Of a DNA stretch of 64,000 nucleotides, positions 4,097 to 61,089 are shown piece after piece. How positions within the stretch are numbered: the first letter of the stretch is position 1; each line of letters opens with the position of its first letter. The notes under the pieces were generated by a model. That model saw nothing but the letters and a program-made list of their open reading frames with translations, had not been told where the DNA came from and ran no database searches. The stretch is from Blastopirellula sediminis (GTDB lineage Bacteria; Planctomycetota; Planctomycetia; Pirellulales; Pirellulaceae): NCBI RefSeq assembly GCF_020966755.1, contig NZ_JAJKFT010000010.1, positions 3,126,720-3,190,719 on the forward strand. The letters run 5' to 3'. The position numbers were made by a program, and so were the translations under genes.

Positions 4097-4341
4097 ATTG
4101 GTTTCCAGAGTAGGGCAGGGGGGTGAATGGGTTGGTGGCTAAAAACTCAGAATAGTTGAGAATCTGTGCATTGTCGATCAGTCCTCTGGTTTTGTACCCC
4201 ATGATTGACGGTAGGGTCCGTGCCAACCGAAAATAGTCCCCATTTCTTGTGAAACGCCATTTTGCACTTTTGGCAACTATAATGGCCGATTCCCGCCAAA
4301 TGGACCCCACCACTCATTCACCTCTAGATGGGAGATTCTCG

Positions 4342-5856
4342 ATGAAGCTTCGATTTCGCCAGATTGCCGCCGCGGCGCTTGGACTGTCGGCGTTGTTCGC
4401 TGCCGGCCGCCTGCAGGCAGAAGTAAAAGTGCCCGCTTTGTTTACCGATCACATGGTGCTGCAGCGCGATCTGCCGATCGTCGTCTGGGGAAAAGCGGCC
4501 AAGGGAGAAGAGGTTACCGTTTCGGTCGCTTCGCTCGAAGGGAAAACGACGGCCGATGATGACGGTCATTGGTCAGTGAAGCTGGGCGAGCTCCCGGCCG
4601 GCGGTCCGCATCGCCTGGTGATCAAAGGTCAGAACGAAATCGCGATCGAAGACGTGCTGGTCGGCGAAGTCTGGGTTTGCTCCGGACAATCGAACATGCA
4701 GTGGCCTCTCTCGCGCGCCAACGATCATGAGTTGGAAGCGATGACCGCCAAGTTGCCGCAGCTCCGTTTGATCACCGTTCCCAACGTCGCCGCCCAGGCG
4801 CCGAAGGATGACTTCAACGGCAAGTGGGAAGTTTGCACGCCGGAAACGGTTCGCGAATTCTCCGCTGTCGGTTACTTCTTCGGTCGTCAGTTGCAACAGA
4901 CGCTCGACGTGCCGGTCGGTTTGATCGACAACGCGTGGGGCGGTTCGGCCGCTGAAGCGTGGGTTCGTCGCGACCTGCTCGAAGCCGATCCGCGTTACGC
5001 CGATATGCTCAAAGGTTGGGACGCTCGCGTCGTCGACTACGAAGCGAAGCTGGCCGAATACAAAACGGCTGCCGCCGCTGCGAAGGGGACTGACAAGAAG
5101 CCGGAGCCGCCGAAAGATCCCGGCGTCAACGGTAACCATCGCCCGGCCAACCTTTACAACGGCTGCTTGGCGCCGGTGATCGGTTACGGCATTCGTGGCG
5201 CGATCTGGTACCAAGGGGAATCGAACTCGGGTCGTCCCGAAGAGTATGGTCATCTCTTCCCGCTGATGATTCAGAATTGGCGCGACGTCTGGAAGCAGGG
5301 AGACTTCCCGTTCTACTGGGTGCAGTTGGCCGACTTCATGGGCGAAAAGCCGGAACCGGCCGAAAGCAACTGGGCCGCTCTGCGCGAATCGCAAACCTTC
5401 ACGATGGACAAGCTGCCGAACACCGGCGAAGCGGTCATCATCGACATCGGCGAAGGTCGCGACATTCACCCGCGTAACAAGCAAGCCGTTGGCATGCGTT
5501 TGGCTCGCATCGCGCTGGCTCGCGACTACGGCATTGACGTTCCGTATCGCAGCCCCCGTTTCAAGAGTTTGGAAGTGAAGGGGGACAAGGCGATCGTCAC
5601 CTTCGACACCTTCGGCACGCCGCTTTACTCGTTCGACGCTCCGCAGCCGAAAGGTTTTGCGATTGCCGGCGCCGACGGCAAGTATGTCTGGGCCGAAGCC
5701 AAATTGGTCGGCGACGACAAGGTCGAGGTCTCGAGCAAAGAGGTCAAGGAGCCGGTCAGCGTTCGTTACGCTTGGGCCGACAACCCGGTCAACACGCTGC
5801 AAAACAAAGCGGGCCTGCCGGCCACGCCGTTCCGCAGCGACAAGCCGGCCGAGTAA
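4342..5856 (+). CDS. Exported sialate O-acetylesterase family protein
   Basis: A 504-aa protein starting at ATG 4342. GGGAG at 4330-4334 lies 7 bases before it, and a signal peptide ending near LQA begins there. The open frame extends to 4249, but that part is not signal-like. The SASA-type block I is SGQSNMQW at residues 114-121, with S117 as the predicted nucleophile. Later come [11 protein letters not shown] and [11 protein letters not shown], the latter holding the Asp/His block. An immunoglobulin-like stretch (about 30-105) precedes the SGNH core, as usual for the family. It probably removes acetyl groups from exported or environmental glycans. It ends at a strong terminator. Confidence 0.92.
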
Positions 5857-5883
5857 GCGGCTCGCTGAATGTTGAAATCAGAA

Positions 5884-5917
5884 ACGCTCGCGTCGATCCG
5901 ACGCGAGCGTTTTTTTA
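5884..5917 (+). terminator. Terminator of the sialate O-acetylesterase gene
   Basis: A 12-bp perfect stem (acgctcgcgtcg at 5884-5895 with its complement at 5899-5910) with a 3-base loop is followed by seven T. Confidence 0.92.
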
Positions 5918-5925
5918 TGCGCTCA

Positions 5926-6075
5926 CACTAGCCCGCAGCGCAAGCGAGGGAATGAGTATGGCTAAATGACGAATGTCGAAGCCAGAATGACGAACCCGTC
6001 TTCCTTCGTCATTCGAGCTTCGACATTCGTCATTTCATAGAGACCGCATTCCCTCGCTTGCGCTGCGGGCTAGTG
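5926..6075. repeat. Nested inverted repeat, copy A (complete, 'gacgaatgtcgaag' core)
   Basis: A perfect 29-bp outer inverted repeat (left arm 5926-5954 beginning cactagcccgcagcgcaagc, right arm 6047-6075) encloses an 18-bp perfect inner inverted repeat (5964-5981 with 6018-6035). That in turn encloses a 10-bp pair (5985-5994 with 6005-6014). The three nested arms could form a long hairpin or cruciform. It sits between a terminator and dtd, in the same orientation as both flanking genes. Related copies are listed at 14.6, 47.0, 54.0, 59.7 and 60.9-61.1 kb. No transposase is present. Confidence 0.95.
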
Positions 6076-6136
6076 TTTGCGTTCCTGCTATAATCGGCCG
6101 TTTCCAATTTTGGGCGTCGATTAGGAGCCGCAAGCA

Positions 6137-6586
6137 GTGAGAGCCGTCGTTCAGCGAGTTTCCTCGGCCAGCGTGCGCGTCGAGGGAGAAGTGGTTGGCC
6201 AGATCGACAGGGGGCTGCTCGTCCTGTTAGGCGTTGAGCCTGAAGATGGCGCCGCCGACATCGCTTACATGGCCGACAAGACGGCGAACCTGCGAATCTT
6301 TGAAGATGACGCCGGCAAGATGAATCTTTCGGTCGTCGACATCGGCGGTGCGGTCCTGGCCGTCAGTCAGTTCACGCTGCTCGGCGATTGTCGCAAAGGG
6401 CGTCGTCCAGGATTCACCGGCGCAGCGCCGCCGGAGTTGGCCAACGCGCTCTATCAAGAATATGTCGCGGCCGTTCGTCAGTTGGGACCGAAGGTCGAAA
6501 CCGGCATCTTTCGCGCCGACATGAAAGTGTCGCTGGTGAATGATGGACCGGTCACGCTGTTGCTCGATAGCCGCAAGCAGTTCTAA
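6137..6586 (+). CDS. dtd: D-aminoacyl-tRNA deacylase (D-Tyr-tRNA deacylase)
   Basis: 149 aa, the normal length for Dtd, which hydrolyses D-amino acids from mischarged tRNA in the cytoplasm. [13 protein letters not shown] at the N terminus, the SQFTLLGD catalytic motif (Thr nucleophile region) and [10 protein letters not shown] with the cross-subunit Gly-Pro motif are all present. The start is GTG at 6137 with TAGGAG about 10 bases ahead. Its stop overlaps the stop of the convergent membrane-protein gene by four bases. Confidence 0.97.
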
Positions 6587-14546: not shown

Positions 14547-14573
14547 CTGCGTCTCCCAATTGGAGACGCATGA

Positions 14574-14669
14574 CACTAGCCCGCAGCGCAAGCGAGGGAA
14601 TGTGCCTGGCTACTTCGAACCACGTAAGCGACGCCAACCGCTTTCCCTCGCTTGCGCTGCGGGCTAGTG
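14574..14669. repeat. Nested inverted repeat family, copy B (short, core reduced)
   Basis: The left arm 14574-14602 is identical to the copy A left arm. The right arm 14643-14669 matches its complement over 27 bases. The 40-base centre carries neither of the inner palindromes seen in copies A and C. It lies between asd and truA, both on the minus strand, 27 bases ahead of the truA start, so it would be in the 5' leader of truA or between cotranscribed genes. Confidence 0.95.
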
Positions 14670-14704
14670 TTGGACTGGATTGCGGCCGTGAGGCAGCCAC
14701 CGCG

Positions 14705-46992: not shown

Positions 46993-47011
46993 AGATCGCC
47001 GTTTGACCAAA

Positions 47012-47175
47012 CACTAGCCCGCAGCGCAAGCGAGGGAATGCGGTTGCAAGTGAATGACTAAGGCCTAATGACTAATGTCTAATAGGGAAGAGAGACGCTT
47101 CTCGGCATTAGACATTAGTCATTAGACATTAGACATTTCCAACCGCATTCCCTCGGCTCGCGCCTCGGGTTAGTG
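47012..47175. repeat. Nested inverted repeat, copy C (hybrid arms, 'gactaatgtctaat' core)
   Basis: The left arm 47012-47040 is of the same subfamily as copies A and B. The right arm 47146-47175 matches instead the variant subfamily seen at 60.86-61.01 kb (cattccctcggctcgcgcct...). The inner palindrome differs from copy A: taatgactaatgtctaat at 47066-47083 with its perfect complement at 47107-47124. Located between convergent genes. Confidence 0.95.
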
Positions 47176-47199
47176 TCACGTCGCCTAGTGTAGGGCGTT

Positions 47200-54026: not shown

Positions 54027-54033
54027 CGGCGAA

Positions 54034-54122
54034 ATGCCTAATGACTAAGCTCTAATGTCTAACCGGGAGCGGAATTGCGTCTCGGTCTTCCCTTAGACAT
54101 TGGTCATTAGACATTAGTCATT
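54034..54122. repeat. Inner-module repeat, copy D (no outer arms)
   Basis: An imperfect inverted repeat made only of the 'taatgactaatgtctaa' module: left half 54034-54062, right half 54093-54122 (ttagacattggtcattagac...). This is the same core as in copy C but without the 29-bp outer arms, so the inner module can occur alone. It lies just after the DUF1501 stop. Confidence 0.88.
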
Positions 54123-54365: not shown

Positions 54366-54438
54366 GCCCCCTTCGTCTAGTGGCCCAGGACGTTGGATTC
54401 TCAGTCCAAAAACACGGGTTCGACTCCCGTAGGGGGTA
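54366..54438 (+). tRNA. tRNA-Glu (anticodon CTC)
   Basis: 73 bases. The acceptor stem GCCCCCT pairs with AGGGGGT (G-T at the first pair). The D arm (TCGTCTAGTGG...), the anticodon stem ttgga/tccaa with loop ttctcag (CTC at 34-36), and the T arm with GGTTCGACTCC complete the cloverleaf. The 3' CCA is not encoded. A terminator follows at once. The sequence pattern is typical of bacterial tRNA-Glu. Confidence 0.95.
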
Positions 54439-59913: not shown

Positions 59914-60867
59914 ATGAAAAGTTTGCTTCATGCGCTGCTTGCGATCGCCGCGCTCGGCTTGAGCGGTTCGCTTTCCCAAGCCGGCGAAGCGAATGATCTC
60001 ACCGATCATTCCCAGGAGGTCCTGACGGTTCCGCCGGTTTCCAGCGGCGCCCCCGCGCCAGGCAAACGGGTGGCGATCACGTCGCCAGAATACGCCGGGA
60101 CCGAAGTGCGTCATTACGTCTACCTTCCTCCGGATTGGGAGAAGAACCGTTCGACGCCGATCATTTTTGAGTACACCGGCAACTACTATCCCGCGAGCGG
60201 TTCGACCGGGCGACCCGAAGACGCCGCTTTGGGCTACGGCCTCTCCGGCGGTCGTTACATTTGGGTGTCGCTCCCTTACGTCAACCAGCAGGGAACCGCC
60301 AACGAGCCGACCTGGTGGGGAGACGAAGCGGCGACCATTCAATACGCCAAGGTCAATGTCCCCCGGATCATCCAGCAGTTCGGCGCCGACCCCAACGCCG
60401 TCTTTCTCTGCGGATTTTCTCGCGGCGCCATCGGGGTCAACTATCTCGGTCTGCATGATGACGAGATCGCCAAACTCTGGACCGCCTTCGTCACGCACGA
60501 TCATTTTGATGGCGCTAGAGCATGGGTAAAACCGTGGGGCTCGCCACTAGACGCCTATCGTGAAAGCGCGCGACAGCGCCTAGCGAGAGTCGCTGGCCGT
60601 CCCTATTGGGTCAGCCAGAACGGCAGCATTCGAGAGACGCAAGCGTTCGTCCAATCGGCTGTCGCCAACTCCGACAATTTCCACTTCGCCGAAATCAACG
60701 CAACAGAAATCCTCGGCAGCTTCCCCAACGCAACCGCCAAGTCCGCGCACACCGACCGCTGGCTGCTCAAACCAAGCCGATATCGAAGCGAAGTGTGGAC
60801 TTGGATGAACAAGGTGGAGAAAAGCGGAAAGCGGAAAGCGGAAAGCGGACAAGAACCAAAACACTAG
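59914..60867 (+). CDS. Exported alpha/beta-hydrolase whose last residues come from a repeat
   Basis: 317 aa with a signal peptide (MKSLLHALLAIAALGLSGSLS). The nucleophile elbow is GFSRGA with S169, and HTDRW is a likely catalytic-His region. The core fold covers about 65-290. The last codons are not part of the fold: VEKSGKRKAESG is coded by 'gcggaaa' tandem units, and the final His and stop (cac tag) are bases of repeat arm F. The ancestral end of the gene has evidently been replaced by repeat DNA. Confidence 0.82.
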   Translation: MKSLLHALLAIAALGLSGSLSQAGEANDLTDHSQEVLTVPPVSSGAPAPGKRVAITSPEYAGTEVRHYVYLPPDWEKNRSTPIIFEYTGNYYPASGSTGRPEDAALGYGLSGGRYIWVSLPYVNQQGTANEPTWWGDEAATIQYAKVNVPRIIQQFGADPNAVFLCGFSRGAIGVNYLGLHDDEIAKLWTAFVTHDHFDGARAWVKPWGSPLDAYRESARQRLARVAGRPYWVSQNGSIRETQAFVQSAVANSDNFHFAEINATEILGSFPNATAKSAHTDRWLLKPSRYRSEVWTWMNKVEKSGKRKAESGQEPKH

Positions 60868-61089
60868 CCCGAGGCGCAAGCCGAGGGAATGCGCACGCAA
60901 GCAAATGACGAATGCCGAAGCTCGAATGACGAATCAAGCACGAAGTCGCGAATGACGAATGTGCCCCCCCAAAAAAACACTAACCCGAGGCGCAAGCCGA
61001 GGGAATGCGGTCGAGAAGAAAAGCGGAAAGCGGAGAGCTGAAAGCGGACAAGAAGCAAAACACTAGCCCGCAGCGCCTGCAAGGGAATG
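60816..61089. repeat. Cluster of repeat arms (copies F, G, H) with 'gcggaaa' and 'gacgaatg' modules
   Basis: Three same-direction arms: F 60862-60891, G 60977-61006 (both of the 'cccgaggcgcaagccgag' subtype) and H 61061-61089 (the 'cccgcagcgc' subtype). Between F and G lie several 'atgacgaatg' units from the copy A core (about 60903-60960). 'agcggaaagcgg' tandem units precede F and H. It is a compound, partly degenerate array rather than a CRISPR, because spacers and repeat lengths are irregular. Confidence 0.88.

Follow-up and report, generated by a model that had tools for sequence, protein, structure and literature searches.

A nested palindrome upstream of dtd in Blastopirellula sediminis as a probable composite of a REP doublet and a heptad-word hairpin

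A short intergenic stretch just before dtd, within the 64,000 nucleotides of Blastopirellula sediminis DNA analysed here (the window), folds back on itself at several nested levels, which raises the question of what kind of element it is and how such depth came about. A sequence-only reading had described perfect outer, middle and inner arms of 29, 18 and 10 bp centred near 6000, and considered that this depth implied selection or a recent origin. The three perfect arm pairs and their centre are recovered by an exact inverted-repeat search, with two lengths corrected: the outer arms reach 30 bp (5925-5954/6047-6076, one pair beyond 5926-5954/6047-6075), the middle arms 19 bp (5964-5982/6017-6035), and the inner arms 10 bp (5985-5994/6005-6014). 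When mismatches are allowed, the outer arm spans 35 nt and the inner arm 31 nt, both at 94%. The structure is better described as a REP pair (level 1) and one heptad-word hairpin (levels 2 and 3) with a mismatch inside it. The nested palindrome is two repeats of different origin, one within the other, and it is deeply palindromic because two inverted repeats are nested. The inference of selection or recent origin is thus only partly right. Ongoing arm-to-arm correction remains unproven, given an arm score of 18.1 within elements versus 18.9 between elements of the genome.

From left to right, the element comprises a REP of type A (ACTAGCCCGCAGCGCAAGCGAGGGAATG; 5925-5954, plus strand), a REP tail of the "beta" type that links it to the heptad array (5955-5963, plus strand), the left heptad array (5964-5994, plus strand), a 10-nt terminal loop placed by folding (5995-6004), the right heptad array (6005-6035, minus strand), a tail of the "alpha" type that links this array to the right REP (6036-6046, minus strand), and an inverted REP of type A (6047-6076, minus strand). 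The tails were typed by sequence and tail comparison. The left array, which holds both the 19-bp middle and the 10-bp inner arms, reads AATGACG, AATGTCG, AAGCCAG, AATGACG and a final AA; the right array is the reverse complement of AATGACG, AATGTCG, AAGCTCG, AATGACG and AA. For the 158-nt strand, the folding energy is -111.7 kcal/mol as RNA and -75 as DNA, with z of about -18 for RNA and DNA alike and none of 200 dinucleotide shuffles equally stable, in agreement with the very stable fold that had been anticipated. No known RNA family was matched at the element, and the window contains no rRNA family match, only a tRNA at 54366.

The element had also been described as an intergenic, multi-copy feature just before dtd, and this holds: 253 REP arms exist in the genome, and the copy studied sits between the terminator of the upstream gene and dtd. 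The latter (D-aminoacyl-tRNA deacylase; 6137-6586, plus strand) is an open reading frame whose orthologues in the genus are 85-92% identical. The upstream gene (4249-5856, plus strand), supported by its open reading frame and coding score, is sialate O-acetylesterase-like, a name given by eye from its sequence. Its probable intrinsic terminator, a 14-bp perfect stem with a 3-nt loop and a T run (5882-5919, plus strand), lies outside the element; it was found as an inverted repeat and is not listed by the pattern scan. Congeners lack the element at dtd. Given that upstream synteny with them is broken there, no clean empty site was obtained. The pattern scan found no promoter-like site at dtd, and its weak terminator-like matches fall within the REP arm. 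A dedicated regulatory role at dtd is probably absent; the very stable hairpin could insulate transcription there. In the closest congener (G001), the gap before dtd (L103) is occupied by another palindromic repeat, GGTAGCCCGGGCAG...GGGCCACCC, with arms similar to those around the own-genome Y1_Tnp gene L036.

The 253 copies of the outer arm ACTAGCCCGCAGCGCAAGCGAGGGA were counted in the 7.05 Mb own genome (G000) at no more than two mismatches in a 24-base core, and the reversed control pattern yielded none. Seven matches fall in the window, where zero are expected. This search rules out the two outcomes that would have undone the sequence-only reading, namely arms confined to the window and unrelated chance palindromes. 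Three congeners hold 46-110 REP copies each, copies also occur here and there in genomes from other families of the order, and a second REP type (B), CTAGCCCGAGGCGCAAGCCGAGGGA, is present alongside type A. In 1.6 Mb of contiguous sequence of G000, from which the cluster statistics were taken, all 66 of 66 REP clusters are intergenic and 33 of 66 lie between convergent genes, compared with 74 of 691 (11%) intergenic gaps of at least 100 bp. Inverted (+/-) pairs make up 28 of the 66 clusters, with a spacing of 29-151 nt that is variable rather than fixed, and the loop contents of these 28 pairs are often mutually unrelated. A bare pair with a 44-nt loop and no heptads (14573-14670) served as comparison copy. 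The 5' foot is CTAG in the common copies and GTAG in a minority and around genes L072 and L035, and CCAG is also found.

Since single REP hairpins fold only weakly on their own, covariation was used for the stem. Across 16 REPs flanking class-3 TnpA_Y1 genes, the stem is paired in 98.8% of cells, versus a shuffled mean of 91%; compensatory changes include CCC/GGG, CAC/GTG and CCT/AGG, and slid controls are 6-48% paired. The first base was assumed in some rows of the alignment and differs in some, a column that lies outside the tested pairs. Given that variants with compensatory stem changes flank class-3 TnpA_Y1 genes, the outer part is very likely a REPIN/BIME-like non-autonomous unit. The earlier remark on likeness to short planctomycete intergenic repeats is supported: the outer part resembles known bacterial intergenic repeats, as a REP pair linked to class-3 TnpA_Y1.

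Eleven Y1_Tnp matches occur in the own genome, one group of which carries the class-3 signature (NHVH, Y----Q). The class-3 genes with inverted REP flanks in this genome are L072, L035 and L040. L072 has the motifs TNHVHVV and YTLDAQ and matches the NCBIfam models of IS200/IS605 and REP transposases weakly, both under cut-off; its REPs are one or two bases off the common REP (GTAG foot, GAAGCGC). L035 and L040 are flanked by type B REPs. The congener gene L073 has complete REP dimers on both sides, one change from the common REP, and class-3 genes of order relatives from other families are flanked by further REP variants. For the commonest REP (CTAG foot, GCAGCGC), the search of the own genome gave no exact cognate next to an intact gene; one fragmented assembly (G038) has 73 REP arms and no class-3 transposase match; and co-divergence of REP and protein is not significant (Mantel r 0.28, p 0.09), hence suggestive only. 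The anatomy is that of a REP/REPtron system, atypical in its CTAG foot, and on balance we take class-3 TnpA to be the mobilising enzyme, movement in trans being inferred and none having been seen.

In comparison with REPINs, REP doublets that form a hairpin (Bertels and Rainey 2011, PMC3116915), the element likewise has two inverted REPs and a spacer that fold into one long hairpin, is high-copy and extragenic, and is associated with a Y1 tyrosine transposase whose genes are flanked by nearly the same REPs (L072, L035/L040, L073). Yet the spacer of this element is a repeat in its own right, the cross-phylum heptad hairpin; the foot is CTAG, so the 5' GTAG (GTRG) criterion is unmet; and the enzyme is of class 3 rather than a classical RAYT. 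Class-3 TnpA_Y1 genes are reported mainly from Planctomycetes, with atypical flanking structures and a 5' foot CnGA (PMC6006769). The planctomycete host, the NHVH, WT and Y----Q motifs, and the weak, high-copy flanking structures agree with that description, whereas the CTAG/GTAG/CCAG feet do not meet the CnGA criterion and heptad cargo is absent from that account. GTAG/CGTC tagged REPs (PMC3733652) share the imperfect palindrome, the unpaired 5' tag, the dimers and the preference for gene 3' ends. Their dimers are, however, reported inside larger palindromes, whereas the REPs here enclose one, and the tag here is mostly CTAG.

The middle and inner arms are built of the 7-nt words AATGACG, AATGTCG, AAGCYNG and AATGACG. 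These two levels belong to a repeat family of their own, whose partner in the genome is PF05635 genes, and the copies fall into recognisable families. Clusters of such words number 18 in the 1.6 Mb, versus 0 in the control, and a REP lies within 60 nt of 17 of them, on both sides in 11, a proximity found for 3.7% of random intergenic positions. The pattern AATGACGAATGTCGAANNNNGAATGACGAA, with 26 specified bases, occurs in at least 119 stretches titled Planctomycetota, Verrucomicrobiota, Bacteroidota, Chloroflexota or Acidobacteriota, at least five phyla, where a composition estimate with uniform base use predicts about 1e-4 matches by chance. Only 4 of 84 heptad hairpins in other genomes lie inside REPs, hence the association of REPs and heptads is limited to some lineages; the window itself holds a heptad hairpin without REP arms, 6 nt past a gene (54033-54122). 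BOX/MITE-type repeats are, like the present element, short, modular, intergenic, hairpin-forming and gene-less. Heptad hairpins differ from them in that no target-site duplication signal was found around them. A general habit of inserting into hairpin loops was considered and not adopted, the excess of palindromic flanks being weak (11%, 5% expected, with five strong cases). In the papers that were searched, neither the heptad words nor the REP strings are mentioned in any relevant context.

The same words as in the window copy appear at a gene-bearing locus of G000 (C10:845541-846012), where AATGACGAATGTCGAAACCAGAATG arms bracket a 127-aa PF05635/TIGR02436 gene (C10:845640), of the IVP/Avd-like four-helix-bundle family, and the element directly follows the stop codon of the gene before it. 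At this junction, the gene is also present in G003 and G076, with heptad arms, and in G001, where the arms are degraded; G002 holds there a different, decayed member with AAAGCGG words. The window-copy words also bracket PF05635 genes at three loci of further genomes. Other PF05635 genes are flanked by other words (GTGGACC, GGGTCAG, GGCTGTC, GAGGATT), and their flanks are still inverted period-7 arrays. When scored against mismatched flank pairs, 19 of 25 PF05635 loci lie above the 95th percentile and 15 of 25 above the 99th. The mean period-7 score of the 25 loci is 0.802, compared with 0.503 for control flanks (p 5e-9), and a replication on 23 loci from outside the order, mostly of other phyla, yielded 0.791 versus 0.516 (p 6e-7), the comparison being run after removal of one genome common to both sets. 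Flanks of class-3 TnpA genes, taken as a control, present no period-7 excess (0.514 versus 0.505), and in PF05635 flanks no periods other than 7 and its multiple 14 stand out.

Of the genomes selected through a match to the heptad pattern, 25 of 25 have PF05635, compared with 0 of 14 control genomes. Given that the 25 were preselected for heptad words and that PF05635 is widespread in these groups, being found also in 17 of the 32 relatives that lack the 16-mer, this co-occurrence is supporting evidence rather than proof. The window copy has inverted arrays of 7-nt words and no PF05635 gene between its arms, nor room for one in a 10-nt loop. We consider its inner part likely to be a gene-less relative of the PF05635-type heptad elements.

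We know of no established function for PF05635 proteins outside diversity-generating retroelements. In the papers that could be searched, which exclude subscription literature and preprints, no description of 7-nt arrays around PF05635 genes was found, so the period-7 rule may be new in kind. A wider proposal, for which we see about even chances, is that PF05635 genes make up a broad group of cross-phylum mobile elements defined by structure and not by sequence, with inverted terminal arrays of 7-nt words in which the words are free and the period is fixed; that they shed gene-less hairpins which other mobile repeats, REP pairs for instance, can carry; and that the intervening sequences (IVSs) of 23S rRNA are the sole site class noticed so far. 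Those IVSs encode S23p/IVP (PMC4990558), and the gene-bearing relatives resemble them in the complementary terminal arms that bracket a PF05635 gene and in a patchy distribution that suggests horizontal transfer. The window copy, in contrast, is gene-less, intergenic and not in an rRNA helix, the setting from which RNase III removes IVSs, and its arms are 7-nt word arrays. As to the junction itself, the PF05635 element is seen there in several species, including one of another family (L365 5541-6012, L358, L368, L370, L357); in G003 (L368) the upstream gene takes its stop codon from the heptad array (GGC TGG AAA TGA), and several PF05635 arms start right at a stop codon.

The window has two further copies that combine both parts. 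The one at 47011-47180 consists of a type A REP, heptad arrays of AATGACT/AATGTCT words and a type B REP; the other, at 60861-61089, is a mosaic of REP B, heptads, REP B, an AAAGCGG heptad array and a degenerate REP A. The 47 kb composite aligns almost end to end, from one REP through the heptads to the other, with about 20 or more places in G000 at roughly 72-85% identity, each match clearly better in one orientation. Full-length matches of single polarity indicate, as far as sequence can tell, that whole units descended from one shared ancestral composite. At the 47 kb site itself, G001 carries heptads enclosed by type B REPs, and another repeat, of 170 nt, lies within an arm; the REP dimer of G003 is bare and its loop short, and G002 has other repeats. 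Given these differences, heptads are also gained or lost within REP pairs that stay in place. Movement of units with exchange of parts is moderately favoured over repeated separate insertion.

We therefore read the feature, with a probability of about 0.6, as a composite non-autonomous mobile-type element, in which a REP doublet of the class-3 TnpA_Y1 type carries a heptad hairpin of the PF05635 kind. Under this reading, a class-3 TnpA_Y1 (a RAYT-like HUH/tyrosine transposase that acts on single strands) would be the cognate enzyme of the outer doublet and would recognise the REPs as structured ends in single-stranded DNA. Sequence between two inverted REPs would travel along with them, and in this lineage the cargo would be the heptad-word hairpin, copied with the enclosing pair. 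That the enzyme moves units in trans and that the hairpin derives from a PF05635 element by gene loss are both inferred; no movement of units has been seen. A possible but unlikely alternative is that the two parts are independent, the REP pairs being old fixtures into whose loops heptad hairpins inserted later, in the way that 23S rRNA IVSs occupy rRNA helix tips, the known ones sitting in helices 9, 25 and 45 (PMC4990558). The 47 kb site can be read this way, since the loop is short and bare in G003 and filled with heptads in G000 and G001, and homologous heptads are enclosed by A/B REPs in G000 and by B/B in G001; heptad hairpins free of REPs elsewhere fit as well. Against it stand the many copies that align across both REPs and the heptads in one polarity and the weak palindromic flank excess of non-REP hairpins. 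Tail type also tends to pair with third-heptad type, in only 10 of 12 arms.

The composite reading has also to be weighed against two explanations that involve no cargo of the PF05635 kind. We find it improbable that the inner array is simple slippage DNA whose words are shared with PF05635 elements by convergence. Tandem 7-mers with words that vary between elements would suit slippage, as would some REP-adjacent AAAGCGG arrays without an inverted partner; however, the 26-base pattern recurs in stretches titled from five phyla, its words bracket PF05635 genes in G000, G003 and G076 and at three loci in further genomes, and no period other than 7 and 14 is raised. More improbable still is a selected structural or regulatory element, a giant gene-end hairpin that serves to terminate or insulate transcription or to stabilise mRNA and was spread by ordinary recombination. 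The position between a terminator and dtd, the strong enrichment between convergent genes and the extreme folding energy would all accord with it, yet REPs flank transposase genes, the element is absent at dtd in congeners, the scan at dtd gave no promoter-like site and only weak terminator-like matches inside the REP arm, and convergent gaps are also the least harmful place for an insertion.

With the composite reading, a puzzling palindrome becomes two systems that are open to test. In one, the cargo of a REP family with its class-3 HUH enzyme is a foreign hairpin; in the other, inverted arrays of period-7 words connect orphan "four helix bundle" genes with widespread gene-less hairpins across phyla. 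An element with recognisable ends makes the mobility of PF05635 directly testable.

Some minor arrangements were observed as well. AAAGCGG arrays standing alone beside REPs, with no inverted partner, occur in the window (60861-61089) and at C10:2695192, 3077135 and 3187733 of G000. A repeat of about 170 nt (CAGTCCGTTGATTTTCTCAACGGGCTGCTGGATC...) lies within heptad arms at L408 and L192 (G001), adding a level of nesting. Finally, AATGACG hairpins are nested in inverted arrays of other words, GGGTCAA and GGGTGAG, at L295 (6818-6899) and L239 (6295-6382), an arrangement that resembles one heptad element within another.
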